64,000 bases of DNA from Vaginella massiliensis (GTDB taxonomy: Bacteria > Bacteroidota > Bacteroidia > Flavobacteriales > Weeksellaceae), in the NCBI RefSeq assembly GCF_900089075.1, contig NZ_LT593746.1:742920-806919 (forward strand), read 5' to 3'. The notes below the pieces were generated by a model that worked only from the letters and a program-made list of their open reading frames with translations, did no database searches and had not been told where the DNA came from. Shown here in pieces: positions 10,881-30,038 of this stretch. Made by a program: the position numbers and the translations under genes. The first letter of the stretch is position 1. Each line of letters opens with the position of its first letter.

Positions 10881-11219
10881 ATGCCGAAATTTGTAAGTAT
10901 GCTTTTCATTAGTTGTTTGCTTTTTTCATGTCAGTCGATTGAGCGATACAATGCACTACTCATGCGAGAAATCCCAGTAACTCAGTTGCAAGAAGATGTA
11001 GATTTTGCTTATCAAAAATTGCAACGCAAACATCCCGACTTGTATTGGTTTACGCCAAAAACGGAGTTGGAATACCAATTAGATAGCTTCAAAAAGGCTA
11101 TTCAACAACCCATGAAACCCTTCGATTTTTATTATGAATTTTCTCAAATCATCGGGAATATTGGGCAAGCGCATACGTCGCTACAAAATACATTGACAAT
11201 CAATAGGTTATTAATGTGA
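10881..11219 (+). pseudogene. S41 peptidase lipoprotein, N-terminal fragment cut by the mobile element
   Basis: The first 101 codons of an S41-family (C-terminal processing protease-like) gene, with a lipoprotein signal (LLFSC). Host sequence ends in the 11-bp repeat at 11172-11182, at the codons for AHTSL; the reading frame then runs 12 codons into the element and stops at TGA 11217-11219. Fusing base 11182 to 45287 gives a continuous 1581-base frame (526 residues). The fragment has no catalytic residues, so the insertion destroys the gene. Confidence 0.93.
11172..11182 (+). repeat. attL core, 11-bp direct repeat
   Basis: CATACGTCGCT, identical to 45276-45286. The left flank CAAGCG (11166-11171) pairs with CGCTTG formed at the right junction, giving a CAAGCG-CATACGT-CGCTTG core in the empty site. 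Confidence 0.92.
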
Positions 11220-11229
11220 TGGACTAAAA
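11219..11229 (+). repeat. subterminal repeat ATGGACTAAAA, left copy
   Basis: The 11-mer ATGGACTAAAA lies 37 bases inside attL and recurs in the same orientation at 45162-45172 inside the right end. A candidate arm-type site for the recombinase or for an excision factor; inference from position only. Confidence 0.5.
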
Positions 11230-11311
11230 AAGGGACTAGCTTATTCAGTTGGTTCCTTTTTATATTACTTCTTTAAGTTCTATTTTAAAGGAGAATATTC
11301 TTGTATACAAT

Positions 11312-11499
11312 CTTGTCAAAATGTGCATAGGTTATCCACCTGACCTTGTCAAAATGTGCATAGGTTATCCACCTGACCTTGTCAAAATGTGCATAGGTTA
11401 TCCACCTGACCTTGTCAAAATGTGCATAGGTTATCCACCTGACCTTGTCAAAATGTGCATAGGTTATCCACCTGACCTTGTCAAAATGTGCATAGGTTA
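11312..11499 (+). repeat. 33-bp tandem repeat array (five full units plus 23 bases), iteron-like
   Basis: Perfect units starting at 11312, 11345, 11378, 11411 and 11444, then a partial unit 11477-11499. Each full unit begins CTTGTCAAAATGTGCATAGG and contains TTATCCAC, one base short of the DnaA-box consensus TTATCCACA, set inside a small AGGT/ACCT inverted repeat. The 33-base period equals close to three helical turns. An AT-rich tract follows within 75 bases. These traits are those of an iteron-type origin, but no function is shown. Confidence 0.9.
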
Positions 11500-11568
11500 C
11501 AAATTGTTTATTACTGATATTCAGTATAATATGATTTTCTTATTGTATTAATATATTAAATATATATT

Positions 11569-11610
<42 letters not shown>

Positions 11611-11724
11611 TTTTTTTCTTTCTGCATCAAGTCTCTCTGATTAATCAATAAAATTAGCATTCAATTTAAATACTGCTGACAACCAATGTTTTAATAACTC
11701 TATAAAAAAGCGGTTTGGAAAGTA

Positions 11725-11782
11725 GCAAGATGTGTCATTGTACCCACAAACTTTGCAAGTTTTGGTACTAATGACATCTTGC
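11725..11782. other. long imperfect inverted repeat, candidate oriT or RNA hairpin
   Basis: The arms GCAAGATG(TG)TCATTGTACC and GGTAC(T)AATGACATCTTGC pair along about 19 bp with small bulges; inside them CAAACTT and AAGTTT(T)G pair again, so almost the whole 58 bases folds. It is followed by CCTTTTTTC. It lies 222 bases upstream of the relaxosome gene, which makes a transfer-origin hairpin plausible; a terminator or a structured leader are alternatives. Confidence 0.6.
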
Positions 11783-11863
11783 CTTTTTTCAAAAGGAGAA
11801 AAAACTGCGGAACTTGTTTTTTTTCTTTAAAAAATTTGATTTATAAATAAAATTTGTTTTTGG

Positions 11864-11901
11864 ATGTAGTTTTTAATCCAAATTAGTCCTAATTAGTTTT
11901 A
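11864..11901 (+). repeat. 38-bp dispersed repeat, copy A (upstream of mob genes)
   Basis: Matches 30001-30038 at 34 of 38 positions, beginning ATGTAGTTTT in both. Each copy lies 70-105 bases upstream of the first gene of a rightward transcription unit (12005 and 30108). Probably a shared promoter or regulator-binding region. The rest of 11620-12004 shows no gene. Confidence 0.7.
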
Positions 11902-12004
11902 TTGATAATCAATTGGTTGCGAGGTTTAAAAGAATAATTCAAATTTGTCTCCATAATCAATTTATGAGGGCGAAATAATCTTTTTTATGATAAGAATTTG
12001 ACAA

Positions 12005-12361
12005 ATGGAGACTAAAAAAGCGATGATAAAATTCAGAATAGAAATGCAGAAAAAAGAAAAGTGGAAAAAAATCTGTTCTGAAAAAAAAATCTCACTTACA
12101 AGCCTAATCATTCAGTCGGTTGAAAATAGATTATTAGATGATGAAAGAAAATTGGTTTTGGAGTTCATTGAAAAGCAAGACAATATTTTTGGAAAAATAG
12201 AAAACAATATCAATCAATTTGCGAAGATTGCTAATTCTAAGAAAGATATTTCAAATGCAGATTTGAATAGTTTTAATATTCTTCTGGAAGAGATTGTGGC
12301 TTTGAAATTAGAACAGAATAAAACCTTTATTAAGATTTACACATTGCTTGGAAAATCATGA
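12005..12361 (+). CDS. relaxosome accessory protein, MobC/MobA-like
   Basis: A 118-residue basic N-terminal domain with the pattern of a ribbon-helix-helix DNA binder (IKFRIEMQKKEKWKKICSEK) followed by a helical part with NNINQFAKIAN, the gNNxNQiAk signature of MobC-type mobilisation proteins. It would bind the transfer origin and help the relaxase nick DNA. Its last four bases overlap the relaxase ATG, the usual order for such pairs. It is the first gene of the transfer region; the hairpin and 38-bp repeat upstream are the likely targets of its control. Confidence 0.85.
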   Translation: METKKAMIKFRIEMQKKEKWKKICSEKKISLTSLIIQSVENRLLDDERKLVLEFIEKQDNIFGKIENNINQFAKIANSKKDISNADLNSFNILLEEIVALKLEQNKTFIKIYTLLGKS

Positions 12362-13809
12362 TTGTAAAAGTTATGAAAGCAGCTGGTTCTAATTTTCCTG
12401 CCGTTCAATATAACGATAAAAAAATAAAATCTGAAAAAGGAGAATTAATGCTAATGAAGAACTTTCCTTCATTTATTAATCAACATGGTTCAAAAGAGGA
12501 TGTGAAATCCTATCTAGCCAGTATTTCTAAAAGCCATAAAATTAAAAAACCTCAATTCCATGCAGCTATATCAACACGATTCCGAGAGCATTCAAAGGAT
12601 GAATTAGCCAAAATAGCGGAAGAATTTATGACAGAAATGGGATATGGTGAACAGCCTTATTTAGTGGTTTTTCATGATGATACAGAAAATAATCATGTTC
12701 ATGTTGTTTCAACTAGGGTTGATAAGGGAACAGGGAAGAAGATTGATGATAGTTTTGAGAAATTGAAGTCACAAAAGGCATTGGCAACTGTGATGGAAAA
12801 AATTTATGGAGTAGGTGTAGATGAGAAAATTGAAAAGTTATTACAATATAAATTCAATTCCATTAATCAATTATCTCTTCTCTTTGAACGATCTGGTTTT
12901 CGACTTGTTAAAAATCCGAAGATTGAAAATGCGTATGATATCTTGAAAAATGGAGTTAGTCAACAAACTATTTTAAGTAATCAAATAAATTTTAGTCAGG
13001 CAACAAAAGAAAGGAAAAAACAGCTAAAGGCGATTCTTCATAAATATAAGGACCTCCAAGACAATAAAGTTTTCAAAGTTATAGATCGAAGAAAAATAGA
13101 AGGCGTTTTACCTAAAGAAAAGATAGATGAAAATGGTAAACCTAAAATAGAATTCCAAAGCGCGCTTCAGCACAAGCTCCGAGAAATTTTTGGAATAGAT
13201 ATACACTTTCATCACAGTGCAGATAAAATGCCTTTTGGTTATACGCTAATCGATCATAAAAAAGGAATGATTTTCAAAGGTAGTGAGTTGTTTCCCATGA
13301 AAGACTTATTTGAATTTACCGATTCGGAAATAGATAAAAGGCAATTTGAATCCTTAAAAGATTATTCAATAAGAGATGAAGATTCTAAGAGACTACTGCT
13401 TCAACATCTTAACAGAAATGGTTTTGATAACATTCAGGATTATATGCTTTTTCAAAATAAAAAAAGAAAAAGTAAAAATGAATTCAGTTCATTGAAAAAA
13501 GAAATTGTTGACTATTTGAATTCTAAATACAAGAACAATAATCATATAACTATTTTGAGAGATGAAGAAGGTAAAGAATACGTAATTCATGATAGACTCC
13601 ATTACATTGGAGATTTACGCAGTACAATTGGTAGTGTTGAATTCCAAAAATATATCAATTCCGAAACGAAAATAACCGAAGAGGAAATGCTTTCAGATGA
13701 ATTAAATCAAAGTATTAAAGATTTTGTTTTTGAGATAAATAAATCATCACATACTGGGAAAGATCCAGCAGAAGATGATTTGAAAAAAAGACGAAGGAGA
13801 AAGAAATAA
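12358..13809 (+). CDS. MOBP-type relaxase
   Basis: A 483-residue relaxase. The N-terminal nuclease domain has a tyrosine in AVQYNDKKI (motif I, about residue 18) and the metal-binding histidine triad in FHDDTENNHVHVVS (H106, H113, H115). This enzyme nicks one strand at oriT, stays joined to the 5' end through tyrosine and leads the strand into the recipient. The C-terminal half is lysine-rich, lacks a helicase motif, and ends in a KKRRRRKK run. It overlaps the relaxosome gene by 4 bases and precedes the ParA-like gene by 1 base. Confidence 0.93.
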   Translation: MIVKVMKAAGSNFPAVQYNDKKIKSEKGELMLMKNFPSFINQHGSKEDVKSYLASISKSHKIKKPQFHAAISTRFREHSKDELAKIAEEFMTEMGYGEQPYLVVFHDDTENNHVHVVSTRVDKGTGKKIDDSFEKLKSQKALATVMEKIYGVGVDEKIEKLLQYKFNSINQLSLLFERSGFRLVKNPKIENAYDILKNGVSQQTILSNQINFSQATKERKKQLKAILHKYKDLQDNKVFKVIDRRKIEGVLPKEKIDENGKPKIEFQSALQHKLREIFGIDIHFHHSADKMPFGYTLIDHKKGMIFKGSELFPMKDLFEFTDSEIDKRQFESLKDYSIRDEDSKRLLLQHLNRNGFDNIQDYMLFQNKKRKSKNEFSSLKKEIVDYLNSKYKNNNHITILRDEEGKEYVIHDRLHYIGDLRSTIGSVEFQKYINSETKITEEEMLSDELNQSIKDFVFEINKSSHTGKDPAEDDLKKRRRRKK

Positions 13810-13810
13810 T

Positions 13811-14470
13811 ATGATAATCACTTTTGCAACACAAAAAGGGGGAGCGGGGAAGACTACATTAGCCATTACCTTTGTTAATTATCTATCGAGCTTAACCTCT
13901 CGAAAAATAAATGTTTTTGATTTTGATTATCAAAAATCATTCTATTACAAATGGATGGAAGATCAGATGTTGGATGATCCAAAAATCTATGACGTGCAAA
14001 TTGTAGGTGAAGATGAAGACGAAAACAAATATCCTTTTGAAGACCTTGAGAAGCTATTTGAACTTAAAGACTCTGATGAAATAAATGTTTTTGATTTGGC
14101 AGGAACGTTAGACGAAAAGTACAGTGATTTATTGGTGTATAGTGATGTAATTATTATACCGTTTGAATATTCGGATGTCTCTGTAAAATCGACCTTAGTT
14201 TTTAAAAATCTTTTAGGACTTATTGAATCTCAGGCTGAAAGAATATTTATTAGAAATAAGTACGACAAAGGATACAAGTACTTAAATCAAAAAGAAATGG
14301 ATGAAGAAATTTCCAAATATGGAGTGTTAATAGAAACACCTGTGTTTAAGAGAAATTGCTTGCAAACTATAAACACTCGAAAATTAAGCTACGAACAAAA
14401 ATATGCTGTACGAAAGCCCTTTAATGAAATAATTGAAAGTATAAATGATGCATTACAAATTACCATTTAG
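13811..14470 (+). CDS. ParA-like ATPase, TraA type
   Basis: A 219-residue P-loop ATPase with the deviant Walker A motif KGGAGKTT (residues 9-16) of the ParA/MinD group. Bacteroidota conjugative elements usually carry such a gene (TraA) at the head of the tra operon. It may position the element or the transfer machine in the cell; no ParB is seen next to it. Starts one base after the relaxase stop. Confidence 0.85.
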   Translation: MIITFATQKGGAGKTTLAITFVNYLSSLTSRKINVFDFDYQKSFYYKWMEDQMLDDPKIYDVQIVGEDEDENKYPFEDLEKLFELKDSDEINVFDLAGTLDEKYSDLLVYSDVIIIPFEYSDVSVKSTLVFKNLLGLIESQAERIFIRNKYDKGYKYLNQKEMDEEISKYGVLIETPVFKRNCLQTINTRKLSYEQKYAVRKPFNEIIESINDALQITI

Positions 14471-14735
14471 AATTGTTCTTGAACGCAAGTATAATGATAT
14501 TAATATCGACCAATATTTAAAAGAAAGAGAAGAAAATGTAAGAGAAAGAAAAACATGGAATATAACCATTGATAATGACTTGCATGTGGAGTTGGGTAAA
14601 TTTCAAACCTATGACATCTCGTTAGATGAGATTATTGATTTAGCGATTAGATATGCATTGAATAAGCATGAGTTCAAAAAATTATCTGCTCAATTAATAA
14701 AAGAAAAAGAAAACAAAAAACAAGAAAACTTATGA
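14445..14735 (+). CDS. small conjugation protein, TraB position (DUF3408-like)
   Basis: A 96-residue protein. The part WNITIDNDLHVELGKFQTYD then a helix-turn-helix-like stretch (DEIIDLAIRYALNKHEF) looks like a ribbon-helix-helix DNA binder as seen in DUF3408/TraB proteins. The start overlaps the ParA-like gene by 26 bases; a downstream in-frame start is not obvious. It may be the ParB-like partner of the ATPase before it, which is inference from position. Confidence 0.6.
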   Translation: MMHYKLPFRIVLERKYNDINIDQYLKEREENVRERKTWNITIDNDLHVELGKFQTYDISLDEIIDLAIRYALNKHEFKKLSAQLIKEKENKKQENL

Positions 14736-15181
14736 TAAAATATACCGCCATATTACTAGGCTTATATGTCGTTTATTATGCTGGAAATATTGTCTATGAT
14801 CTTTTTTTTAGAAAAGAAAAAAAGATTGTTACAGACGAATCAGAAGAGTTCACATTGAAAGATATTACAACAGAGCTGTCAGAGGTATACATCGATGATG
14901 TTGAAGAAATTGATACTCCAGGTGAATTTATACAGCATGATTTTGATACAGTAGAAAGAGAAGAAAATGATAGACCAGACTTAGATCAATTAAGAGAGAA
15001 GTTTGAAAGAGAAGAAGAGTTTGATTTTGAAAATTCTTTGAATAAAGCTACACAAGAAAATGTAGTTAAGAAAGTGACAGAAGAAAAAAACAACTGGAAA
15101 GACCTTATGAAAATGTCTGAAACTATGGTTCAAGTTGTGAAAGATTATGATGGACAAAAGGTATATCATTCAACAATATAA
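14732..15181 (+). CDS. membrane-anchored acidic protein of the tra operon
   Basis: A 149-residue protein with one N-terminal transmembrane segment (about residues 4-22) and a very acidic, Glu-rich, probably disordered cytoplasmic or periplasmic part. I do not recognise the family. It overlaps the previous gene by 4 bases and stands where TraC/TraD-like genes lie in related elements. Confidence 0.65.
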   Translation: MIKYTAILLGLYVVYYAGNIVYDLFFRKEKKIVTDESEEFTLKDITTELSEVYIDDVEEIDTPGEFIQHDFDTVEREENDRPDLDQLREKFEREEEFDFENSLNKATQENVVKKVTEEKNNWKDLMKMSETMVQVVKDYDGQKVYHSTI

Positions 15182-15213
15182 CATTTATTAATTTTTTTAA
15201 CATTTTTTTATTT

Positions 15214-15531
15214 ATGATCAAAATGAACACAAGAACTAAAACGCTATTAGCATTAGCGTTTTTAACAATTGCTATTACACCGCTTATGGCTCAAGGTGGT
15301 AACTCTGCTATTGCTAATGCTTCAACTACAATTGCTGATTATTGGGACCCAATAAAAAAACTCTTAAATGCAGTTGGAGGAGTTGTAGGACTTATTGGAG
15401 GTCTCCGAATTTATAACAAATGGACAAATGGTGACCAAGATATCAACAAAGAAATTTTGGGGTATGGCGGAGCTATGGTTTTTTTGATTATCGTACCACA
15501 ATTTGTAAGTGCGTTTTTTAAGATAGCATAG
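15214..15531 (+). CDS. traE: TraE-like (DUF4134) pilin, VirB2-like
   Basis: A 105-residue protein with a signal peptide (cleavage after PLMAQ likely) and two hydrophobic helices joined by a short loop (NKWTNGDQDINKE), the VirB2-pilin shape. The pattern IYNKWTNGDQDI and GGAMVFLIIVPQFV fits the DUF4134/TraE family of Bacteroidota. The alternative ATG at 15223 gives a better signal peptide. It would form the pilus or channel filament. Confidence 0.88.
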   Translation: MIKMNTRTKTLLALAFLTIAITPLMAQGGNSAIANASTTIADYWDPIKKLLNAVGGVVGLIGGLRIYNKWTNGDQDINKEILGYGGAMVFLIIVPQFVSAFFKIA

Positions 15532-15536
15532 TAAGC

Positions 15537-15821
15537 ATGAGTTATTATTTATACAAGGGGTTGAAGAAACCTCTTGTATTTTTCGGTTTGAAAGGAAAAT
15601 ATATTTTATATGCTGTAATAACAATTGGAGGTGGAGTCTTACTTACGATGGTGATTTCATCAATTATTGGATTGTTTGGGACATTGTTAGGTGTTGTATT
15701 AACTGCAGGAGGGGTTTATTTGGTTTTCAGAATACAAGATAAAAAAGGGTTATACAATAAAACAAAAAATAACAACCAAGTCTTTGTTTTTCCTAAAAAA
15801 ATGAAAAAACTAAAAAGATGA
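15537..15821 (+). CDS. traF: TraF-like (DUF4133) protein, VirB3-like
   Basis: A 94-residue protein with two closely spaced transmembrane segments after the short polar start YKGLKKPLVFFGLKGKYI, as in DUF4133/TraF. VirB3-like proteins sit with the VirB4 ATPase in the inner membrane. Its TGA overlaps the ATG of the ATPase gene, so the two are translationally coupled. Confidence 0.88.
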   Translation: MSYYLYKGLKKPLVFFGLKGKYILYAVITIGGGVLLTMVISSIIGLFGTLLGVVLTAGGVYLVFRIQDKKGLYNKTKNNNQVFVFPKKMKKLKR

Positions 15822-18800
15822 AAAAAACAACAACTTTAGATTTTAATATTCCCTATATAGGCTATGATTATGGAAAAGACCATGATTGGAATTTTGATGT
15901 ATTGTTTGGACAATTTGGAAACCCCATAATAGGTATCAAAATAAAAAATACAGTACAACAATATTCTGCTGATCCAGAGGGGTACTTAAATTATCACGCT
16001 TTATTAAATCAAGTTGTATCGATAATAGGGGAGGGGAGAATAATTCAAAAGCTTGATATATTCTCTAAAAGAAAATACAACGCAGAAGTTCATGAGCAAT
16101 TTTTGCAACAAAAATACTCCGAGCATTTTGATGGACGTCTTTTTAAAACAATTGAAACTGTTTTATTTTTTACAGACATCGTTGATGATAAACTTAAAAA
16201 GAAATCAAAGCATTACGGTTTTTCAGAGAAGAATTACAAAAATCTACGAGATAAATGTCAGAAGGTTTTTATGCTTTTAAAACAAGAAAATTGTAATCCA
16301 CAATTTTTGTTTGAAAAAGATTTTGAATATTACATTTCGGGGGTGCTTACCATGCAATTTGGTGAAAAACCAGTTTTTGATAATATTAAATCATCTAATG
16401 AATTTCTTCAAATAGGAAATCGGTTTGTCAAGAATATTACTTATGTAGACGTAGAAAATATAGATATACCCTCTTATATAGAACCATTTTCTTTATTTGG
16501 TGGATCTGGTGCAGCAGCTGAAACAGCAGTCGATAATTTTTCGTTCATTAATGATTTAGAAGACTATGAGACTATTGTTTATAATCAAGTTGTCTCAATT
16601 CCATTACAAGCGCCTCAGCAACGAGAACTAGACAAAAAGAAAAAGAAACATGAGGGAGCGGCTAATAATTCACCGTCAAATGCAATTATTGCAGAAGAAA
16701 TTGAAACGTTACTTCACAATATTGCTGTAGATGGTCAATTAATTGTAAATGCACATTTTTCCATTTTGTTTTCAGCATTAGATCTAGAAAAAATGGAAAA
16801 TATTCAATCCATGATAGAAAACAAACTTTTCACAAAAGGGATTGTCGTTTCAAAAAATGCTTATAATCAAATGGAACTATTTCGGGCAACAATACCCGGT
16901 AATGCGACTGAGTTAAGAGAATACGATTTATTTATGACCACAAGTGAAGCTGCACTTTGTTTTTTTTTTAAAGAAAGTTACCCCATAAATGAAGAGTCTA
17001 ATTTCTATTTAAGATTTACGGATAGACAAGGTGTCCCACTAAAAGTTGATCCAGCTGATTTACCTATGAAAACAGGACGAATCAATAATCGTAATAAATT
17101 CGTTTTAGGTCCATCAGGTTCAGGTAAGTCATTCTTAATGAATAATATTGTAGAGCAGTATCTAACCTATAATTATGATGTAGTAATTGTTGATACTGGA
17201 GATTCTTATAGCGGAACTTGCTCCTATAAAAACGGGAGGTACATCCAATATACTGAAGAAAATCCAATTACAATGAATCCTTTTCTTTTCAAAAAGGAAG
17301 AATTTAACATTGAGAAAATCGAGTTTCTAAGTAATCTGATTTTTTTGATTTGGCAAGGAGCTGATGCTACGATGTCGGCAACAATCAAATCAATTTTAGA
17401 TAATGTCTTAGTGACATACTATCATCAATTTTTTAATAAAAATGAAAATTGGTTTGAGGGGAAGGATACAGATCATTTATTGTTGTTTCTACAAAAGTTT
17501 AATATTTATGAGGATGAATTAATTGTTGAATTAGAAAAAACATACCAAAAAGAACAAACCTTCTACGATATTTTAGGTATTCCATACGATGCAACAATGG
17601 ATGAAGTGAAACAAGCTGGAAGAAAACTTATTGCAGAATTTCATCCAGATAAAAACATGAATAATCCAAATTATAATCCTTCCGATTTCTACAATGTTTA
17701 TGATGCCTATGAAACATTGATAGACGAAAATAAAAGAAGAATTTATAATGAAACAAAAATGATTTTAGTTATATCGAATGATATAATTAAAAAACCTGAA
17801 ACAGCAGAAGAATGGAATGAAGCATTTAGAAATGCTATTATAAAAAAAATAAAGGAACTAAACGAAACACTTGTTGTTGAAGAGTTGTCTTTTAACTCAT
17901 TTTATGATTTTTGTAATGACTTTCTGCCTATTTATCTGAACAATAAAAATCATAGAATAAAAGAAAATGAATTCAATTTGAGAACTTTTTTGTTTGTTCT
18001 AAAGGATTTCTATAAGGGAGGTAGATATGGAACTACTTTGAATGAAAGTGCAGATAATACTCTCTTTGAGGAACCATTTATAGTTTTTGAAATCGATAAT
18101 GTAAAAGATAATCCAAAGCTTTTCCCAATCGTTACGCTAATCATCATGGATACCTTCATACAAAAAATGAGAATGCGGAAAGACAGACGGAAAGCATTAA
18201 TTATAGAAGAAGCATGGAAAGCAATTGCATCAAAATTAATGGGAGGATACATCTTGTATCTATATAAAACTGTTCGAAAATTTTGGGGAGAAGCTATCGT
18301 AGTGACACAAGAGTTAGATGACATTATTGGAAATGCAGTAGTGAAAGATAGTATCATTAATAATTCAGACACCTTTATATTATTGGATCAAACAAAGTTC
18401 AAGGATAATTTCGATCGAATTGCCGATATATTATCCTTAAATAAAGTGGAACAAAACAAAATTTTCACGATAAATAATCTGAATAACAAATTTGGAAGAA
18501 GTCGTTTTAAAGAATTTTACTTAAAGCGAGGTAGTGTTGGAGAAGTTTATGGAAACGAGGTTTCGTTGGAGCAGTATCTAACCTACACTACTGAAAAACC
18601 TGAAAAATCAGCGGTTGAATACTATGTTCAAGAATTTAAATCTTACGACAAAGCTTTAATAGTTATTGTTGACCATTTGAAAAAATATAAACTGCAATTA
18701 GACCAGTTGGTTTCCCTAGTTAATTTGTTTAAACAGCCATTACAAAATGAAATTGTGAGGTTTTATAATTCAAAAAAGAAAGTACATGACAGTAATACGA

Positions 18801-18892
18801 TTAAGATAATTTCACAAGAATTACAAGAATACGAGGATAATCCGATTGAAATACTCAAAACCAATAATATAGATGTATATGAAGAAGTATAG
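15818..18892 (+). CDS. traG: conjugation ATPase TraG (VirB4-like) with an inserted DnaJ J-domain
   Basis: A 1024-residue ATPase that powers the type IV secretion channel. The Walker A motif is GPSGSGKS (431-438) and the Walker B motif is ALIIEEAW (E797, E798), followed by a TQELDDI segment. It is longer than the roughly 830-residue TraG usual in such elements. Much of the surplus lies between the two Walker motifs, where residues 581-645 form a J-domain with HPD at 609-611. The N-terminal third holds the usual VirB4 region interrupted by a Lys-rich linker near residue 273. It overlaps the VirB3-like gene by 4 bases. The J-domain could bring a DnaK-type chaperone to the channel. Confidence 0.93.
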   Translation: MKKTTTLDFNIPYIGYDYGKDHDWNFDVLFGQFGNPIIGIKIKNTVQQYSADPEGYLNYHALLNQVVSIIGEGRIIQKLDIFSKRKYNAEVHEQFLQQKYSEHFDGRLFKTIETVLFFTDIVDDKLKKKSKHYGFSEKNYKNLRDKCQKVFMLLKQENCNPQFLFEKDFEYYISGVLTMQFGEKPVFDNIKSSNEFLQIGNRFVKNITYVDVENIDIPSYIEPFSLFGGSGAAAETAVDNFSFINDLEDYETIVYNQVVSIPLQAPQQRELDKKKKKHEGAANNSPSNAIIAEEIETLLHNIAVDGQLIVNAHFSILFSALDLEKMENIQSMIENKLFTKGIVVSKNAYNQMELFRATIPGNATELREYDLFMTTSEAALCFFFKESYPINEESNFYLRFTDRQGVPLKVDPADLPMKTGRINNRNKFVLGPSGSGKSFLMNNIVEQYLTYNYDVVIVDTGDSYSGTCSYKNGRYIQYTEENPITMNPFLFKKEEFNIEKIEFLSNLIFLIWQGADATMSATIKSILDNVLVTYYHQFFNKNENWFEGKDTDHLLLFLQKFNIYEDELIVELEKTYQKEQTFYDILGIPYDATMDEVKQAGRKLIAEFHPDKNMNNPNYNPSDFYNVYDAYETLIDENKRRIYNETKMILVISNDIIKKPETAEEWNEAFRNAIIKKIKELNETLVVEELSFNSFYDFCNDFLPIYLNNKNHRIKENEFNLRTFLFVLKDFYKGGRYGTTLNESADNTLFEEPFIVFEIDNVKDNPKLFPIVTLIIMDTFIQKMRMRKDRRKALIIEEAWKAIASKLMGGYILYLYKTVRKFWGEAIVVTQELDDIIGNAVVKDSIINNSDTFILLDQTKFKDNFDRIADILSLNKVEQNKIFTINNLNNKFGRSRFKEFYLKRGSVGEVYGNEVSLEQYLTYTTEKPEKSAVEYYVQEFKSYDKALIVIVDHLKKYKLQLDQLVSLVNLFKQPLQNEIVRFYNSKKKVHDSNTIKIISQELQEYEDNPIEILKTNNIDVYEEV
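17558..17749 (+). other. J-domain coding segment inside traG
   Basis: Codons 581-644 read TFYDILGIPYDATMDEV, then a helix leading to EFHPDKN, then FYNVYDAYETLIDENKRRIY. This matches the J-domain order: YxxLG start, HPD loop, AYxxL and RxxY ending. HPD is the residue triad by which J-domains stimulate Hsp70. It is in frame within the ATPase gene, not a separate gene. Confidence 0.9.
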
Positions 18893-19535
18893 TTTGATTT
18901 TAGCAAGTTTATATTGTTTTACCGTTTCTGCGCAAAACACTTATATAGACCCAACTGTTACGGCTGCGATGATTCTTTATTCAGAAAATTTAAAGGCTAA
19001 ACAAGATGACGTAATTGAAGAAACGACAAAGTTGCAAAGAGCACAAGCGTGGGTTGGAACACAGATGGTGGTAGCAAACAATATTCAAAATAAAATCTTA
19101 AAAGGTCTGAATGAGGTTTCGGGAACGTTGCAAAACGGGATTCAAGTAAAAGAAATTTATTATGAATTGCAAAGATGTTACAGATACGCAAAAGAAGTAG
19201 GTGATTTAGCAGCTGAAAAACCACAGTTTGCAATTTTTGGGGTGAAAGCTACACAAAAAACTTATGAGCAAAGTTTAAATATTATTACGGATGTTACCGA
19301 GTTGCTGAAATCTGGTGATTTGAATTTAGCAACTGCTGGAGACCGATATAGGTTGCTACATAACATATATGAAAATGTGATAAATCTAAAGCTTTGGCTT
19401 TTAGCTATTAAAATGAGAATGGAAAGAGCTATTAGCGTGGGCTTTTGGAATGCTATTAATCCTTTTGCTGGTTATATCAATACAGATAAGAGTATTGTCG
19501 AAAATATCATGAGACGGTATGAAACACATTTTTAA
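18879..19535 (+). CDS. TraI-like (DUF4141) exported conjugation protein
   Basis: A 218-residue secreted protein with a signal peptide ending VSAQ and a long helical, coiled-coil-prone body (AKQDDVIEETTKLQRAQAW and repeated helices), as in DUF4141/TrbJ-like proteins. It would act in the periplasm near the channel, like VirB5. The ATG at 18879 is chosen over 18873 because it starts the signal peptide directly; both overlap traG's 3' end. Its C-terminus TDKSIVENIMRRYETHF shares a motif with the next three genes. Confidence 0.8.
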   Translation: MKKYSLILASLYCFTVSAQNTYIDPTVTAAMILYSENLKAKQDDVIEETTKLQRAQAWVGTQMVVANNIQNKILKGLNEVSGTLQNGIQVKEIYYELQRCYRYAKEVGDLAAEKPQFAIFGVKATQKTYEQSLNIITDVTELLKSGDLNLATAGDRYRLLHNIYENVINLKLWLLAIKMRMERAISVGFWNAINPFAGYINTDKSIVENIMRRYETHF

Positions 19536-20226
19536 AGGTAAAATAATTACCGCTTTTAGAACCTTTCTTTTGTTGCCGTTGTTTTTGATATTAACGTCTA
19601 TGGGAGGAGGGAATTCGTCTCCGTGGTCAAAAGAAAATGTATCATTTCCAATGATGAATCTTGAGATCAAAGCCACAATGGACGAAAATAAACGTCAAAA
19701 AGAGATGAAATCAAAGCAAGATTCTAATACGGCAGAAGAGGTTATTAATGAAAGACAGTGGAAAGGATTTAAAGAAAAAGTTGTAACAATACAAGATAGA
19801 CTTCGAATCTTATCATTGGCTTTGCAAGCTGCTCCAGCAGGTATCCAAATACAAAGGGAAAGCAAAAAAATCTATGAAAACCAAAGAGCTATCATTCAAG
19901 AAATAGAGGATGCACCCTATATCCTAGTGGCAGCACTTCCCTCACAAATAAAGTTTGTAGATGATTTACAAATGGTTATTCGATTTCTAACTGGAATAGT
20001 CCTGTCTTATGGTGCTATAAATCAAATGGAACAAGCTGAAAGAAAGGTTTTATTAGATTATGCAGTTGATGAAGTGAAGAAACTAAGATATGATTCGTCA
20101 AATATGCTGTTTACAATTCAAGAATTAAAATTAAAGATTAAAAGAAACACTAATGCAATTAGATTCTATGTGAACAGAGACAAACAAGTCGTTGAAGAGA
20201 TTATGCAAAATATTAAAAACTTTTAA
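19519..20226 (+). CDS. exported conjugation protein with shared C-terminal motif (second)
   Basis: A 235-residue protein with an N-terminal hydrophobic segment (LLLPLFLILTSMGGG) and a helical body of the same general kind as the preceding TraI-like protein. It ends RDKQVVEEIMQNIKNF, the same tail motif. It overlaps the preceding gene by 17 bases. I do not recognise a named family; a paralogue of the TraI-like protein is likely, from the motif and size. Confidence 0.7.
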   Translation: MKHIFKGKIITAFRTFLLLPLFLILTSMGGGNSSPWSKENVSFPMMNLEIKATMDENKRQKEMKSKQDSNTAEEVINERQWKGFKEKVVTIQDRLRILSLALQAAPAGIQIQRESKKIYENQRAIIQEIEDAPYILVAALPSQIKFVDDLQMVIRFLTGIVLSYGAINQMEQAERKVLLDYAVDEVKKLRYDSSNMLFTIQELKLKIKRNTNAIRFYVNRDKQVVEEIMQNIKNF

Positions 20227-20227
20227 C

Positions 20228-20890
20228 ATGAAAAAGAACATATTTCTGATAGTATTATTATGTGGAATAATATCCAACGCTCAAACTATTGTTATCAATG
20301 ACAAGTTGTTAACTCAAATGACAAAAAATCATTCAGTAAGAATGGCTAGTGAAGAAACTTTTCTGAACTCTTACGAAAAGCAAAGAAAACTTTATGAAGA
20401 TATAAATGGAAAAATAGCACAAGCAATCGTTATTCACGAACACATTTATCGACAATTGAGAAATGTAAACGCTGCGCTTTTACAGAGTAAAAAATTAATT
20501 TATATCTATCAATATTTAGAGAGAATTAAAAAAAATGGAAGTGTAATGCTCTCTGCTACAACGCGAAGACCGCAGTATGCAATCTTAGTATCAAAATATT
20601 ATAATAATATTCTTATAGAAACTCAAAAATTATTTACAGAACTAACAGCTGAAATATTGAATGAAAACAATGACTTTTTGATGGATTCAATGGACAGAGA
20701 ATATTTAATTGAAAATATATATATGAGATTAAGACATATTAATGGGAATATATTGCTCATCACTTGGAGGCTTCAAAGTGCTAATGAAATACCTTATCTC
20801 TATCAAGTTCCAATATTACGAGATTATATAAGTCTTGATAAGCTAATCGTAGATGACATCATTAGAAAATACAATTACATCTTTAATTAA
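20228..20890 (+). CDS. exported conjugation protein with shared C-terminal motif (third)
   Basis: A 220-residue protein. The ATG at 20228 starts a clear signal peptide (MKKNIFLIVLLCGIISNAQ); the longer frame from 20192 overlaps the previous gene and adds a charged stretch, so it is rejected. The body is helical, with segments LRNVNAALLQSKKLIYIYQYLE and RRPQYAILVSKYY that parallel the TraI-like protein's AEKPQFAIFGVKA. The end LDKLIVDDIIRKYNYIF carries the shared tail. Confidence 0.72.
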   Translation: MKKNIFLIVLLCGIISNAQTIVINDKLLTQMTKNHSVRMASEETFLNSYEKQRKLYEDINGKIAQAIVIHEHIYRQLRNVNAALLQSKKLIYIYQYLERIKKNGSVMLSATTRRPQYAILVSKYYNNILIETQKLFTELTAEILNENNDFLMDSMDREYLIENIYMRLRHINGNILLITWRLQSANEIPYLYQVPILRDYISLDKLIVDDIIRKYNYIFN

Positions 20891-20895
20891 TCATT

Positions 20896-21711
20896 ATGAG
20901 AAAACTAATTCTTTACCAAATTTTTTTAATGCTTGTATTTTCTTCAAATATCAATGCACAAAGCGTAAAGCGGCTTAATGATCCATCCATAGTTGCACAA
21001 CACAAAAGAATGACTTACGAAAGATGGGGAGATTGGAGACCTTATCCCAGACGCTTTTTGGGTATTCAGACTAATTTCGCGTATGCTACAGTGTGGGGAA
21101 TGTGGGCTCCAAAAAGAAATAAGCAGTATAAAAAAGGGGAGGATATTAGACCCTTAAAAATTGATGGACTACAAAATAAACGATTATTAGAATTAAAATT
21201 TCAAGAAGAAGAAGCCGAAAGAATACACGCTTCAGCTGATACCGTTTATAAAAGAAGTGTGCAGGATTTTGCCCATTGGACTTCCGCAATCGTTGATGCA
21301 GACCCACTATGGTTATTATATTATAAAAGAATGTTAAATCCTGTTAGAGTTTTCCCTGCTAATCCATCAAATTATGTCGAATGGACCATTAAAGATCAAG
21401 AAACTTTTGATTTTATGAAGAAGACAGGTAAAATAGCAATACTACAAGAAGAGCTGGATCTTATAAAAGAAAAAAATAACTTGTCAAGAACCATGGATAT
21501 GCCAAGGGGGAAAAGGTTCTTAATGTATCACGAAACTTTGATCAGGTGGCGTGCTTTTGAGAAAAGTTTAAGAGCGATAAATGATAAAACAACGTTGCTT
21601 TTGACCTACAAAAATATCATTAAAGATCGCTACAATTTTAATCAATCTACACCTAAATCAGATAAACAAATTGTTGAAGAAGTAATGGAAAAGTACAAAA
21701 ACAAATATTAG
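20896..21711 (+). CDS. exported conjugation protein with shared C-terminal motif (fourth)
   Basis: A 271-residue protein with a signal peptide (SSNINAQ) and an unusual aromatic N-terminal half (RWGDWRPYPRRFLGIQTN, TVWGMWAPKRN) followed by charged helices. It differs from the three genes before it in its body but ends SDKQIVEEVMEKYKNKY, the same tail. It lies 5 bases after the preceding gene and 6 before traJ. The family is not known to me; probably a periplasmic channel component. Confidence 0.7.
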   Translation: MRKLILYQIFLMLVFSSNINAQSVKRLNDPSIVAQHKRMTYERWGDWRPYPRRFLGIQTNFAYATVWGMWAPKRNKQYKKGEDIRPLKIDGLQNKRLLELKFQEEEAERIHASADTVYKRSVQDFAHWTSAIVDADPLWLLYYKRMLNPVRVFPANPSNYVEWTIKDQETFDFMKKTGKIAILQEELDLIKEKNNLSRTMDMPRGKRFLMYHETLIRWRAFEKSLRAINDKTTLLLTYKNIIKDRYNFNQSTPKSDKQIVEEVMEKYKNKY

Positions 21712-21717
21712 AATTAT

Positions 21718-22989
21718 ATGAATAAGTTTATTAAAATAACAATTGGTTTGTGTTTATTTTTTATGCCAATGTTGCTTTTTGGTCAATCGGACGGAGAATA
21801 TAGTAATATTCTAAAATATCTGAAAGGAGATGGAGCATTTGAAAAATGGTTCATGGAAGCTTTTACAACACTCGATACACAAGTCAATATTGAAGCAACA
21901 AAGGTAGCGTTATTAGGTCGCGCAATTGGTGGGTTTGGTGCTTTATTGTATTTGGGATACTTAGGATGGCAGATGATAGCAGGGGATCGAGAATGGGAAA
22001 TAATGCCAATGTTTAGACCAATTTTCATAGGTTTTTTGTTGATTTATTGGTCAGGATTTACCAATCTAATTCAAAAACCATTCATAAAACTTGCACAACC
22101 GGGGAAAGAAATATTTGCTGATATAGAAGATGAAGTCAATGATTTAAGAGTAAAGCGTTTTAAAAAACAGTCACAATTATTAGAGTTTTTGATAAAGAAA
22201 AAAGCTGAAGAGGACGCTAAAGAAGAAATTGTAAAAGGAGATCAAAGTTGGTGGCAACAATTAGGGGATGATATTGCAGATTCAATGGAACAATTGGTTG
22301 CTCCCATTAAAGAATGGGCAATTCGAATGAGTTTTCAAGGTCAAAAAGCTATCGCTGAAATAATAGAATTTGTAGCTTTAGCCATACTTCGTGTCTGTGT
22401 GTATTTAATATTTTTTATTCAGAAAATTTGGAGTTATATACTCATCGTTTTGGGACCTGTAGCTGTAGGTATGGCGTTAATCCCAGGCTTTGAGAATTCT
22501 TTGTACAGTTGGGTGGCAAAATTTATCAATATCAACTTATACACTTTCGTTGCTTATACGATCATTAACATTGGTCAACAATTGATTGCATCTGGATATA
22601 CCATGGAAATTCAAAGGTTAGACTTGCTTATTTCAGATACTGGAGTTGTGGATGATTTAAATGCGCTATTGCTATATATGACTGGTTATGGAATAGTATA
22701 TAACCAGTTATTTACTGTCGTAGCTTATGTTGTTACAGGGATAGGTGTATTAATGACTCCAACAATTGCTGACACTATTGTTACAGCTGGTGGAGCAGGA
22801 GCAGCAACAAAAATGAAGAGTGCAGCTGCTAAAGTAGCTAGTGCAGGAAAAACTGCAGTAATAGCCGCTAAAACAGGGGGAGTAGCAGCCGCTGGACAAG
22901 CAGCAACAGCTGCGAAGGATACAGCTCGAGCAGCACAGCAAACATATAATACTTTAAAAAATAAACGAAATGTTAATGAAAAATATTGA
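21718..22989 (+). CDS. traJ: TraJ-like polytopic channel protein (VirB6-like)
   Basis: A 423-residue inner-membrane protein with a signal-like start (MPMLLFGQ), about six hydrophobic segments and a long Ala/Lys-rich C-terminal tail. The LLGRAIGGFGALLYLGYLGW region and the PVAVGMALIPGFENSLYSW region are typical of TraJ/VirB6-like proteins in Bacteroidota. It should form the inner-membrane part of the channel. It overlaps traK by 20 bases. Confidence 0.87.
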   Translation: MNKFIKITIGLCLFFMPMLLFGQSDGEYSNILKYLKGDGAFEKWFMEAFTTLDTQVNIEATKVALLGRAIGGFGALLYLGYLGWQMIAGDREWEIMPMFRPIFIGFLLIYWSGFTNLIQKPFIKLAQPGKEIFADIEDEVNDLRVKRFKKQSQLLEFLIKKKAEEDAKEEIVKGDQSWWQQLGDDIADSMEQLVAPIKEWAIRMSFQGQKAIAEIIEFVALAILRVCVYLIFFIQKIWSYILIVLGPVAVGMALIPGFENSLYSWVAKFININLYTFVAYTIINIGQQLIASGYTMEIQRLDLLISDTGVVDDLNALLLYMTGYGIVYNQLFTVVAYVVTGIGVLMTPTIADTIVTAGGAGAATKMKSAAAKVASAGKTAVIAAKTGGVAAAGQAATAAKDTARAAQQTYNTLKNKRNVNEKY

Positions 22990-23575
22990 ACAACGAATCA
23001 AAATCAATAAAATAGTATCAATTTCAACTATTTTTTTTGCTTGTCTTATTGTAATCGCTGGGTTTTTGTTTTCTTATAAATTAATAGGAGATTCAAAGAA
23101 ATCAATTTATATCCTAGATAACGGAGTGCCTGTTTTGGCAAAACAAACAGACGCTTTACTTAACCGACCTGTAGAATACAAAGCACAAATTGAACTGTTT
23201 CACAGATTGTTTTTTACGATCGCGCCCGATGATGCTTACATCAAAGAAAACACCAATAAATCACTGTACTTAATTGATGATTCTGGAAAGAAAGAATATA
23301 CAAATTTGAGAGAAAAAGGGTTTTACAATCAAATTATCGCTTCAAGTTCAATGGTAAGTGTTAAAACAGATTCAATAAAAATCAACCTAGAAAATAACAG
23401 CTTTATATATTACGGAAAACAAATGATTAATAGAAGAACAGGAATTATTACAAGAAATCTAATCACAGAAGGAAATTTCAAAGACATCATTAGAAGTCCA
23501 AATAATCCACATGGTGTTTTACTTGAAAATTGGCGAGTTATAAATAATGATGACTTGTATTCTAACATAAGATAA
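22970..23575 (+). CDS. traK: TraK-like protein (VirB8-like)
   Basis: A 201-residue protein with a short cytoplasmic start, one transmembrane segment (about residues 16-35) and a periplasmic domain with the segments YILDNGVPVLAKQTD and EIELFH-like YKAQIELFHRLFF, as in TraK. The VirB8-like role is assembly of the channel core. The ATG at 22976 is also possible. Confidence 0.85.
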   Translation: MLMKNIEQRIKINKIVSISTIFFACLIVIAGFLFSYKLIGDSKKSIYILDNGVPVLAKQTDALLNRPVEYKAQIELFHRLFFTIAPDDAYIKENTNKSLYLIDDSGKKEYTNLREKGFYNQIIASSSMVSVKTDSIKINLENNSFIYYGKQMINRRTGIITRNLITEGNFKDIIRSPNNPHGVLLENWRVINNDDLYSNIR

Positions 23576-23585
23576 TAATATTATT

Positions 23586-23954
23586 ATGGAAAAGTTTATA
23601 GCAAACTTTAGTAATTATAAATGGTTTAGGTGGATTGTAAATAATCCTAAAATATTTTACACCTATACAATGGTGTTTTTAATCATATCATTTATAGTAA
23701 ATATGACTTTTAGTATTTATTATGAAAAGCCTATAAAAAATTACACATCAATGTATCCTATAATGAATATAAAAGATGAAAAAATCCAATTAGATTATGA
23801 AAAAACTAAAGAGAAAATGAAAAAAACAGTGAATGAGTTAGAAACAATGAAAAAAAAGAGAGATCAAGGTTTACTAACGAAAACGGATAGTATAAGAATA
23901 GAATATTTGTATAATCAATACCAAAGCTTGAAACATGAACTTCAAAAAAATTAA
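23586..23954 (+). CDS. small membrane protein of the tra operon, TraL position
   Basis: A 122-residue protein: one transmembrane segment (YTMVFLIISFIVNMTF, about residues 26-45) and a C-terminal coiled-coil-prone part rich in Lys and Glu. It holds the TraL position between TraK and TraM; I cannot show homology from sequence. Its 3' end overlaps traM by 20 bases. Confidence 0.65.
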   Translation: MEKFIANFSNYKWFRWIVNNPKIFYTYTMVFLIISFIVNMTFSIYYEKPIKNYTSMYPIMNIKDEKIQLDYEKTKEKMKKTVNELETMKKKRDQGLLTKTDSIRIEYLYNQYQSLKHELQKN

Positions 23955-25119
23955 TTTCAAAGAGAAAAAATATATTTTACCACTGTTGGTTCTTCCGTTT
24001 TTAATTTTTTTTATTTATATCGGAACAAGCTTCGTTCAAGAGGAAGAAATAGTTATAGATGATGGAGAAAAACTATCACTTTCTTTAGGAGAGAGTAGTG
24101 ATTCCATCATGTCAAAAAATGACGCTTATGATGCGTTTTTTGAAAGAGGAGATGATAGAACTATGTTAGATGGTTTGACACAAGAAACGGATAGTTTAAT
24201 GGTTTATAGTGATTTGTTGACGGAAGCGCAAAAAAGAAAAATTGATTCACTGAAATTTGTATCAGAAAAGCAAATACAAAAAACTCAAAATAGAAATAAT
24301 TCCTATTACGAACCAAAACAAGACCGAGACGATTATCAAAGATCTGCTGATATTATTAAAATGCTAAATGAAAAATCATATGGTTCGAATTCGGTTAGTG
24401 AACCAAATTCAGGAAATTATACAATAAAAGAACTGCCAACAGACCCTGTAAAATTACTAAAAGAACAAATGTTAGTAATGGATTCTATTGAAAAAGCTAG
24501 AGATCCCGAGTATCAAAGTAGATTGGCGGCTGAAGAAAAATTGAAAAAAAACAAAGAAAAAAAAGAAGCCTTTTTAAACTCAACGTTTGACGTAAACAAA
24601 ACGCTTGTTAACAATAGTTTCAATTCAATTTATAAAGCAAAGGAAAATAATTTTATTAAAGCCGTAATAGATGAAGATAACAAAGGGTATTTAGGCTCCA
24701 GAATACGAATAAGATTGTTAGAAGATATCTATGTTGCAAATAAAAGAATTAAAAAAGGTAATGTTTTATACGCTCAAATTTCAGGGTTTTCAATGCAAAG
24801 AGTGAATCTTAATATTGTCTCTGTTTTATCTGATGGTGAAATCTTACCAATCAACTTATCCATTTACGATTTAGACGGAATGAAAGGATTATATATACCA
24901 AATAGTCTGTTTAGAGATATGGTAAAAGAGTTTGGAAGTCAATCTGTTCAAGGAACTAATTTAGATTCCTCTGGAAGTAGTTTTTTTACAAGCATTGGTT
25001 CAAAACTCTTTACTTCCACATCTCAATCCATTGCAAATTTGATAAAAACAAACAAGGCAAAACTTAAATACAATTCATACATCTATTTAATTGATGACAA
25101 AGAAATGCAATCAAACTAA
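23935..25119 (+). CDS. traM: TraM-like protein (VirB10-like)
   Basis: A 394-residue protein with an N-terminal transmembrane segment (residues 15-30), a long acidic and probably flexible middle, and a C-terminal beta domain with RIRIRLLEDIYVANKRIKKG and INLSIYDLDGMKGLYIPNS, the signature of Bacteroidota TraM. VirB10-like proteins span the periplasm and couple ATPase energy to the outer pore. It overlaps traN's alternative start region slightly. Confidence 0.9.
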   Translation: MNFKKINFKEKKYILPLLVLPFLIFFIYIGTSFVQEEEIVIDDGEKLSLSLGESSDSIMSKNDAYDAFFERGDDRTMLDGLTQETDSLMVYSDLLTEAQKRKIDSLKFVSEKQIQKTQNRNNSYYEPKQDRDDYQRSADIIKMLNEKSYGSNSVSEPNSGNYTIKELPTDPVKLLKEQMLVMDSIEKARDPEYQSRLAAEEKLKKNKEKKEAFLNSTFDVNKTLVNNSFNSIYKAKENNFIKAVIDEDNKGYLGSRIRIRLLEDIYVANKRIKKGNVLYAQISGFSMQRVNLNIVSVLSDGEILPINLSIYDLDGMKGLYIPNSLFRDMVKEFGSQSVQGTNLDSSGSSFFTSIGSKLFTSTSQSIANLIKTNKAKLKYNSYIYLIDDKEMQSN

Positions 25120-25141
25120 ATTAAAATTTAAAATAAATATT

Positions 25142-25981
25142 ATGAAAAAGAACATATTTCTATTTTTTCTTTCTGCATTATTATTAAACGTTAATGCGCA
25201 AACTGCTACAAAAGAGCAATTGGTAGAGGATTTAAAAACAATTGAAATATCAGAGGGAATTAACTTACATATCATTTCGCCTGAACAGGTACAATATGTA
25301 GATCTATCAACCGAAAATCTTACAGGCGATATGCCAGCAGAAAATATTTCAAGAGTTAAGATTGCAGATAACGATTCAATTGTTTATTCACAGAATCAAG
25401 AAATAGGTATAGTGACAGTAGTTGGACAATCTTTTATTGCCCAGTACAGATTAATCTATTCAATGAATTCAGCAAAAAATAAAACAAACTTTCATATTCA
25501 AGCAGAAAATATGCAACCAATAGAATTTAATTCTATGCCATTTTCAAATGCTGAATTGAGAAGATATGCCTTGGATTTAATTACTGACAAAAAAGATAAA
25601 AATCCAATTAGAAAAGAAAAAGATTTGAAATTAACCATGCAGTTGAATAACATCTATGTTAGAAGTGATTATATTTTTCTAGATGTAACTTTTACCAACA
25701 ATACAAATCTAAGCTATAATATTGATGATGTGAAATTTTCCATAGAAGATAAAAAGATTCACAAAGCCACAAATAATCAAAGTATAGAATTAGAGCCACT
25801 GTACATTTTCAATAAATCTAAAAGTTTTAGAAAAAACTTTAGAAATATCTATGTGTTCAAAAAATTCACTTTCCCTAATAGTAAAATATTGAACATCCGA
25901 TTAATAGAAGAACAAGTTTCAGGGAGAGCCATTGACATGAAAATTAATTATTCTGATGTCCTAAAAGCTGATACTTTTTAA
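25142..25981 (+). CDS. traN: TraN-like outer-channel protein (VirB9-like)
   Basis: A 279-residue exported protein. The ATG at 25142 starts a signal peptide (SALLLNVNAQ); the longer frame from 25091 adds a lysine-rich piece overlapping traM, so it is rejected. The end, YVFKKFTFPNSKILNIRLIEE, is typical of TraN. The first 20 bases are identical to those of the exported gene at 20228. It would form the outer-membrane-side ring with TraM. Confidence 0.87.
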   Translation: MKKNIFLFFLSALLLNVNAQTATKEQLVEDLKTIEISEGINLHIISPEQVQYVDLSTENLTGDMPAENISRVKIADNDSIVYSQNQEIGIVTVVGQSFIAQYRLIYSMNSAKNKTNFHIQAENMQPIEFNSMPFSNAELRRYALDLITDKKDKNPIRKEKDLKLTMQLNNIYVRSDYIFLDVTFTNNTNLSYNIDDVKFSIEDKKIHKATNNQSIELEPLYIFNKSKSFRKNFRNIYVFKKFTFPNSKILNIRLIEEQVSGRAIDMKINYSDVLKADTF

Positions 25982-25983
25982 AA

Positions 25984-27990: not shown

Positions 27991-28783
27991 CATACTTTTT
28001 ATTCTTACAGGTATTTTTTCTTTTGCTCAATTTAATACCATACGGAAAACAATTAAGGTTGAAGAAAAAACTACCACAAGTATAAATGAAAATATAGAAG
28101 AACAAAATAAGCTAGACTCGAAGGCAAATAAAGTAAAAAAAACATTCAAGATTACCTCAAAATCAGATTTGAAAAATGAAATTGATTCATTAAAGATCTT
28201 GATTAAAGAAATCAAAAATGAAAAAGCATACTATAATCAAATAAAGGATTCATTAATGGAAAATAGTCGTAGAAATATTCTTTTTGCGAACTCCATAGAA
28301 AAAGAAACAAAGCCTAATTACACTATCTACAATTTTATAGACGAACCAATTTCAAAAATATTTATGCCAATAAAAAACAAAATACACATTACATCTCCTT
28401 TCGGGGTTAGAAAACATCCAATAAGTGGTGTAATGAAAATGCATAATGGAATAGATATTAGAGCGAATTATGAAGATGTTCTTTCTGTTCTTGATGGTGT
28501 TGTCGTTGAATCAGGGTGGGATTCAAAAGGAGGAGGACACTATATAAAAATAAATCATTTTGATAGATTTGAAACTTCATATTTACATCTACATGAATCT
28601 TATTATAAAAAAGGAGAAATCGTTAAAGCAGGTTATGTTATTGGTTTAAGTGGGAATTCAGGGGGATCAACTGCGCCGCATTTACATTTTTCTGTCAAAG
28701 AGTGGGGTAGATTTATTAATCCAGTTAAATTTTTAAATGATATAATCAAAGTAAATAACTTAATAGCAATGAATTATGAATAA
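27974..28783 (+). CDS. M23 family peptidoglycan endopeptidase
   Basis: A 269-residue exported protein with a signal peptide (ending FSFAQ), a charged coiled-coil-prone middle and a C-terminal LytM domain. The zinc motifs are present: HNGIDIRAN (HxxxD) and HLHFSVKE (HxH). It should cut peptide cross-links so the channel can cross the wall, a task often done by a lysozyme-like enzyme in other elements. It overlaps the genes on both sides, so its expression is tied to transfer. Confidence 0.92.
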   Translation: MKKFYSILFILTGIFSFAQFNTIRKTIKVEEKTTTSINENIEEQNKLDSKANKVKKTFKITSKSDLKNEIDSLKILIKEIKNEKAYYNQIKDSLMENSRRNILFANSIEKETKPNYTIYNFIDEPISKIFMPIKNKIHITSPFGVRKHPISGVMKMHNGIDIRANYEDVLSVLDGVVVESGWDSKGGGHYIKINHFDRFETSYLHLHESYYKKGEIVKAGYVIGLSGNSGGSTAPHLHFSVKEWGRFINPVKFLNDIIKVNNLIAMNYE

Positions 28784-29474: not shown

Positions 29475-29570
29475 TCCTAAATATTTTAACCAACATTCCA
29501 TTTATTAGCGATAGTGGCGGATTTGAAAACATAAACTTTCAATTACCGCCATTTCGCCAATATGGTTTAG

Positions 29571-29744
29571 GCTACATACGGTTCAAGTTTTAGCGTTTCT
29601 ATTATTGAATCTCAAAAAGTCTTATTACCAACCAAAAACAATCAACCCGATTATAAGGCAATGGAACTAATCGTTTCAGCCATTCAAAAACTCGTCATAA
29701 AAGATGTAGTACAATACACACAGGATAAATTAGCTACTGCATAA
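29571..29744 (+). pseudogene. startless 57-codon remnant
   Basis: An open frame of 57 codons directly after a TAG, with a protein-like composition (TYGSSFSVSIIESQKVLL, then YKAMELIVSAIQKLVIK) but no ATG, GTG or TTG near its beginning; the first Met is codon 28. It ends at TAA just before a strong hairpin. Probably the 3' remainder of a lost gene, or a short gene starting at the internal Met. Confidence 0.4.
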
Positions 29745-29748
29745 ACTA

Positions 29749-29784
29749 AAACAGACTAGCCAACCTAATCGGGCCAGTCTGTTT
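29749..29784. terminator. strong hairpin, likely bidirectional terminator
   Basis: AAACAGACTAGCC and GGCCAGTCTGTTT form a 13-bp stem with one weak pair and a 10-base loop. It separates the transfer operon and the remnant from the next unit. The rest of 29785-30107 has no gene besides the 38-bp repeat. Confidence 0.7.
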
Positions 29785-30000: not shown

Positions 30001-30038
30001 ATGTAGTTTTCAATCCAAATTAGTCTTATTTAGCTTTA
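30001..30038 (+). repeat. 38-bp dispersed repeat, copy B
   Basis: Matches 11864-11901 at 34 of 38 positions and lies 70 bases upstream of the start of the second rightward unit. Confidence 0.7.

Follow-up and report, generated by a model that had tools for sequence, protein, structure and literature searches.

J-domains bring Hsp70 to a particular place and trigger its ATPase through the HPD triad. In the DnaJ class and in class C J-proteins (E. coli DnaJ, 5nro and 1xbl) the carrier of this domain is a co-chaperone. Sec63 and Pam18/Tim14 are channel-bound J-proteins that recruit Hsp70 at a protein-conducting channel; both are separate subunits and act on the receiving (trans) side of the ER and mitochondrial channels, respectively. 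We know of no J-domain in the VirB4-type ATPases R388 TrwK and VirB4 of T. pseudethanolicus. Passage through its T4SS requires a conjugative relaxase to unfold, and which unfoldase is responsible has been stated to be unclear (PMC5826034).

The TraG protein of Vaginella massiliensis described here has the J-domain sequence, HPD triad and fold in common with DnaJ and the class C J-proteins, whereas its carrier is a secretion ATPase. The protein, further referred to as J-TraG, is encoded in the window (the whole 64,000-nucleotide stretch of DNA that was analysed) and has the following layout:

15818..18892, + strand: J-TraG, VirB4-type conjugation ATPase carrying a J-domain, 1024 aa (translation and profile matches)
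17108..17131, + strand: Walker A GPSGSGKS, residues 431-438 (sequence; conserved in the alignment)
17438..17884, + strand: hypervariable helical insert, residues 541-689 (alignment)
17561..17749, + strand: J-domain proper, residues 582-644 (PF00226, E 3.6e-16; AF2 model; Foldseek to PDB J-domains)
17642..17650, + strand: HPD triad, residues 609-611 (invariant in 83/83 distinct J-TraGs)
18191..18211, + strand: Walker B strand and acidic residues 792-798 (sequence, conservation, strand 792-797 in the model)

The ATPase belongs to the Pfam family P-loop_TraG (PF19044, E 5.6e-130, 434 bits against a cut-off of 25.8) and to the NCBIfam family Bac_Flav_CT_G (TIGR03783, 463.2 bits against a curated cut-off of 261.55). 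The insert 541-689 is part of its C-terminal ATPase domain and houses the J-domain, with the HPD triad between helices II and III and between Walker A and Walker B, the latter being formed by strand 792-797 followed by E797/E798. An earlier note, made by reading the sequence, had placed a J-domain at residues 581-645 and proposed a domain search; PF00226 matches residues 582-644 with 59.4 bits (curated cut-off 27.8), covering positions 2-63 of the 63 in the model. The positions given there for HPD (609-611), Walker A (431-438) and the Walker B acidic residues (797-798), and the location of the J-domain between the Walker motifs, are likewise correct. NCBIfam DnaJ models also match this region, and the best 30 PDB chains found by phmmer with J-TraG as the query are J-domains, every one aligned at 576-646. 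No G/F or zinc-finger family was matched next to the J-domain in the Pfam scan of the protein. The conclusion that a genuine, functional-looking J-domain has been kept inside a VirB4-type ATPase is well supported. The opposite reading, a chance resemblance or an assembly chimera, has a negligible probability and is already refuted by the E-value of 3.6e-16 and by recurrence of the architecture in independent assemblies (80 named loci and two plasmids, see below).

A structure of the full-length protein was predicted with AF2 (pLDDT 84, pTM 0.75) from an input alignment that left out plasmid-record rows. Around the HPD loop the model has helices 582-586, 594-608, 621-635, and 637-655, and helices 594-608 and 621-635, which flank HPD, form the predicted antiparallel helix II-III hairpin, the structural feature by which the same note had proposed to judge the domain. 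Over most of its length J-TraG shares the fold of R388 TrwK/VirB4 (7o41, 8rtd; VIA Z 30.5), and it shares the ATPase fold with VirB4 of T. pseudethanolicus (4ag5/4ag6; Z 26.6), at an identity of 14-19% to the two proteins. Since the Foldseek and VIA searches with the full-length model were dominated by VirB4, HerA, and TrwB matches, which are uninformative on the J part, the insert was modelled separately. The pLDDT of this isolated model is about 90-94 in the J core. Its top Foldseek matches in the PDB are J-domains throughout, and the DnaK-bound J-domain 5nro_B is matched with a TM-score (target) of 0.85 at 2.0 A.

J-TraG is a conserved clade, carried by roughly one in three of the host-family genomes sampled. 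At a threshold of E 1e-100 or better, the J-TraG type was found in 93 of 296 such genomes, nearly all matches having 64-83% identity; HPD was read directly in the fetched loci rather than in all 93. One of the 93, from genome G024 (50% identity), is an HPD-less outlier, further called L205. When 84,980 species genomes were scanned, 80 named loci with J-TraG were obtained. They are from Chryseobacterium, Epilithonimonas, Kaistella, Cloacibacterium, Weeksella massiliensis, Elizabethkingia occulta, Empedobacter, Riemerella columbipharyngis, Moheibacter, Halpernia, and others, and include four Capnocytophaga contigs. The 80 loci and the 93 family genomes rule out a singular oddity. A match to the whole insert is found in only two of 72,556 plasmid records, Chryseobacterium sp. 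JJR-5R p1 and Sphingobacterium faecium pWB8. In the phylum sample (395 genomes) full-length matches to the insert model occur only in members of the host family, the other matches listed being shorter, mostly DnaJ-sized frames; the order sample contains host-family members and DnaJ-sized matches; and the class sample, in which the full-length insert match is likewise confined to the host family, contains J-less TraGs from outside it. Spread across all Bacteroidota was therefore not seen in these three samples, and the exceptions to the host family are the Capnocytophaga genomes and the Sphingobacterium plasmid. The search for other TraGs with PF00226 at the equivalent place, suggested in the earlier note, detected the J-domain in 37 of the 38 clade members scanned singly, and the remaining one is most likely L205.

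For an analysis of conservation we picked 83 distinct full-length proteins that hold an HPD and exceed 900 aa. The triad is at the aligned place in all of them, and the TraG frames without HPD in this survey are known J-less relatives. Besides HPD, the canonical J-domain positions Y583, L586, A630, Y631, L634, R640, and Y643 are invariant. The basic face of helix II (K598, R602, K603) is also retained: with the window protein included, Lys or Arg occupies position 598 in 84/84, position 602 in 84/84, and position 603 in 81/84 sequences, and K612-N613 after the HPD is nearly invariant. In 70 close pairs of J-TraGs, dN/dS of the J-domain is 0.029, compared with 0.091 and 0.074 in the two insert flanks and 0.013-0.023 in the ATPase core. 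The J-domain is under strong purifying selection. The position equivalent to Tyr-25 of E. coli DnaJ is filled by Gly in 53 of 84 sequences, and to judge by this residue the binding of DnaK might be weaker or re-specified.

In the maximum likelihood tree constructed with the insert removed, all J-TraGs lie on one side of a branch with support 93/98. Together with the HPD-less L205 they form a group with support 100/100, separate from the J-less TraGs. The L205 branch is long, and its exact placement is unsure. The simplest reading is a single gain of the J-domain followed by loss of HPD in the L205 lineage. The L205 protein itself (G024, 1483-4473) retains J-like sequence (YYEVLGI ... KRAYDKT) and represents a natural HPD-minus variant; the domain may thus serve some use independent of Hsp70. 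Other TIGR03783 TraGs of Bacteroidota (from Bacteroides, Mucilaginibacter, Pedobacter, and Pontibacter plasmids) resemble J-TraG in the ATPase core (40-51% identity) and in the operon order (relaxase, ParA, DUF4134, DUF4133, TraG ... TraK, TraM), but differ in the place of the J-domain, where the alignment has another helical-looking sequence in Mucilaginibacter and Bacteroides and almost nothing in Pedobacter and Pontibacter. V. massiliensis itself encodes a second TraG elsewhere on the contig, also without a J-domain. These J-less proteins suggest that the machine does not generally require docking of DnaK.

The J-TraG gene lies in a conjugation operon with the relaxase and coupling protein genes, within an element that has the following features:

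11172..45286, no strand: ICE of ~34 kb, with the 11-bp direct repeat CATACGTCGCT at 11172-11182 and 45276-45286; interrupts a protein-coding gene
12005..12361, + strand: small protein in the MobC position of the Chryseobacterium plasmid (synteny; no Pfam match)
12358..13809, + strand: relaxase, MobA/VirD2-like (PF03432, E 6e-21)
13811..14470, + strand: ParA-family ATPase (PF01656/PF13614)
15214-15531, + strand: small protein in the DUF4134 position (synteny and size)
15537-15821, + strand: small protein in the DUF4133 position (synteny and size)
21718..22989, + strand: TraJ / TrbL-VirB6-like membrane protein (PF04610, weak, E 7e-4)
23935..25119, + strand: TraM (PF12508, E 5e-38)
25091..25981, + strand: TraN, DUF4138 (PF13595, E 8e-48)
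25984..27990, + strand: T4CP, VirD4-type coupling protein (PF10412, PF02534, PF12696, PF14293)
43879..45144, + strand: tyrosine integrase of the ICE (PF00589, PF13102)

With an integrase, transfer genes, att repeats and an empty site all present, the element is an ICE predicted to be self-transmissible. In two congeners the chromosome is unbroken at this site and the target gene is whole, while in V. massiliensis the gene, presumably S41-peptidase-like by our reading of the protein, is split by the ICE. A tRNA attachment site was considered as well; none is found in the window, the insertion being in the protein-coding gene. The ICE interval also contains a Zeta-toxin-like kinase gene (38017-38877; PF06414, E 8e-39), a complete gene for a DnaB-type replicative helicase (40573-41889, - strand), and a gene for a 1846-aa multidomain protein (32199-37739) with Toprim, Eco57I-like methylase, and SNF2/helicase domains, which from its domains would be of the kind found among counter-defence proteins of mobile elements. 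No VirB11-type ATPase scored above the cut-off in the genome. Exactly two J-domains are encoded in it, those of DnaJ and J-TraG, together with one full-length HSP70 (DnaK) and one short partial HSP70 match. Both HSP70 matches are outside the window, and no element-borne Hsp70 was seen.

These observations could be explained as follows. By acquiring a J-domain in its helical insert, a VirB4-type ATPase would have become an inner-membrane motor with its own docking site for the host DnaK. By analogy with known VirB4/TrwB structures, the J-domain would be at the cytosolic face of the channel. DnaK in the ATP form would bind the HPD/helix II face of J-TraG, whose J-domain would then trigger ATP hydrolysis by DnaK, so that the chaperone closes on an exposed stretch of a polypeptide that has arrived where the channel opens to the cytoplasm. 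The simplest candidates for this polypeptide are the relaxase and other transferred proteins; DnaK would assist in unfolding it, or in preventing its refolding, during threading by the ATPases. The parts of this explanation differ in strength. Recruitment of DnaK by J-TraG is quite likely, because HPD is invariant, the DnaK-contact positions are conserved, and the genome has one full-length DnaK. That the task is handling of the substrate rather than of another client is a narrower call, to which we give slightly less than an even chance, and the relaxase in particular is an assumption, since pilin or TraG itself could equally be the client. The purposes suggested in the earlier note, unfolding of the relaxase or keeping substrates open, are thus only some of the options, and its interpretation is supported in part. 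For the whole scheme, host DnaK docked at the channel by J-TraG and helping to unfold or hold the transferred polypeptide, we consider the chances to be about even. Our first choice is unfolding or holding of the substrate, with channel or pilin handling second and gating by DnaK availability third.

The second possibility is that the J-domain recruits DnaK to build or recycle the channel, by folding or remodelling of the TraG hexamer or by handling of pilin during pilus elaboration, and does not act on the transferred substrate. J-proteins that remodel complexes, such as those of the auxilin type, do exist, and it is VirB4 that has the J-domain, whereas the relaxase is received by the coupling protein. 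VirB4 ATPases, moreover, are needed for pilus elaboration as well as for transfer (PMC12857230). On the other hand, a pilin- or assembly-specific signature was not found, and channel assembly presumably proceeds without it in the J-less relatives, whose operon order is the same; we consider this role rather unlikely. A gate or sensor would also fit the finding that one motor protein has a J-domain of its own while the genome encodes one full-length DnaK. Through it, the availability of free DnaK (under heat or envelope stress) would switch transfer and tie the spread of the element to host proteostasis; no regulatory partner was seen, and we regard such a function as improbable.

All these readings assume engagement of Hsp70. 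If the J-fold were only a structural spacer or a protein-protein contact, retention of J-like sequence in L205 after loss of HPD and the presence of other inserts at this place in relatives would be readily explained, and J-like proteins without HPD exist in eukaryotes. This is however difficult to reconcile with HPD in 83/83 J-TraGs, the retained basic helix II, and a dN/dS of the J-domain below that of its flanks, and we find it marginally less probable still than the gate. Returning to the preferred scheme, in which DnaK acts on the transferred polypeptide, J-TraG resembles Sec63 and Pam18/Tim14 in the working principle, a J-domain held at a channel, with no homology claimed; it differs in having the J-domain within the motor itself and on the donor (cis) side. 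Conjugation machines with an Hsp70 docking site on VirB4, in which host DnaK helps by unfolding or holding at the point where the type IV secretion channel is entered from the cytoplasm, might tentatively be viewed as a class of their own, a bacterial donor-side counterpart of these proteins, although we put this at somewhat below even.

The earlier note knew of no described J-domain in a VirB4-type ATPase, and we too found no description of a J-domain VirB4 or TraG in the open-access full-text literature, where absence is not proof, nor any annotated family with this insertion; the name of the J-TraG proteins at NCBI is only 'TraG family conjugative transposon ATPase'. Both parts are of known kinds, and their fusion inside a secretion motor appears to be undescribed. 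The J-TraG elements, a family found in Flavobacteria, suggest use of the host protein-unfolding machinery for moving DNA and protein between cells, in a clade carried by Chryseobacterium, Epilithonimonas, Kaistella, Elizabethkingia, Empedobacter, Riemerella, and Capnocytophaga. They also offer a natural system in which a single residue change (HPD to QPD) can probe the share of the host chaperone in relaxase unfolding, with ready-made controls in the J-less sister TraGs, the HPD-less sister, and the J-less TraG of the same host.

One more conserved feature was observed in the TraG gene, upstream of the region encoding Walker A:

16958..16972, + strand: CFFFK motif with the T10 tract TGTTTTTTTTTTAAA, TraG codons 381-385 (codon-invariant candidate slippage site)

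Wherever residues 381-384 are present among the 83 J-TraGs, they are encoded by the same codons, TGT TTT TTT TTT. For comparison, the top codon has a mean share of 0.72 over 360 two-fold sites, of which only 7 use a single codon. In most J-less relatives the tract is interrupted by C or by another residue. Addition of one T results in TGT TTT TTT TTT TAA, so that a stop follows residue 384 immediately, close to the N-terminal domain border. The tract is a candidate site of programmed transcriptional slippage or of phase variation (a contingency site), which would yield a VirB4 consisting of the N-terminal domain only; it resembles transcriptional slippage of the Thermus dnaX type (PMC5009743). 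Frame-broken copies with T9 or T11 tracts are present in several genomes, and homopolymer sequencing error could explain these shifted copies, but not the codon invariance. J-TraG is broken near residue 380 in genomes G067, G054, G123, G217, G245, and G262; the tract is T11 in G067 and G262, as well as in locus L049, and T9 in G217 and G123.
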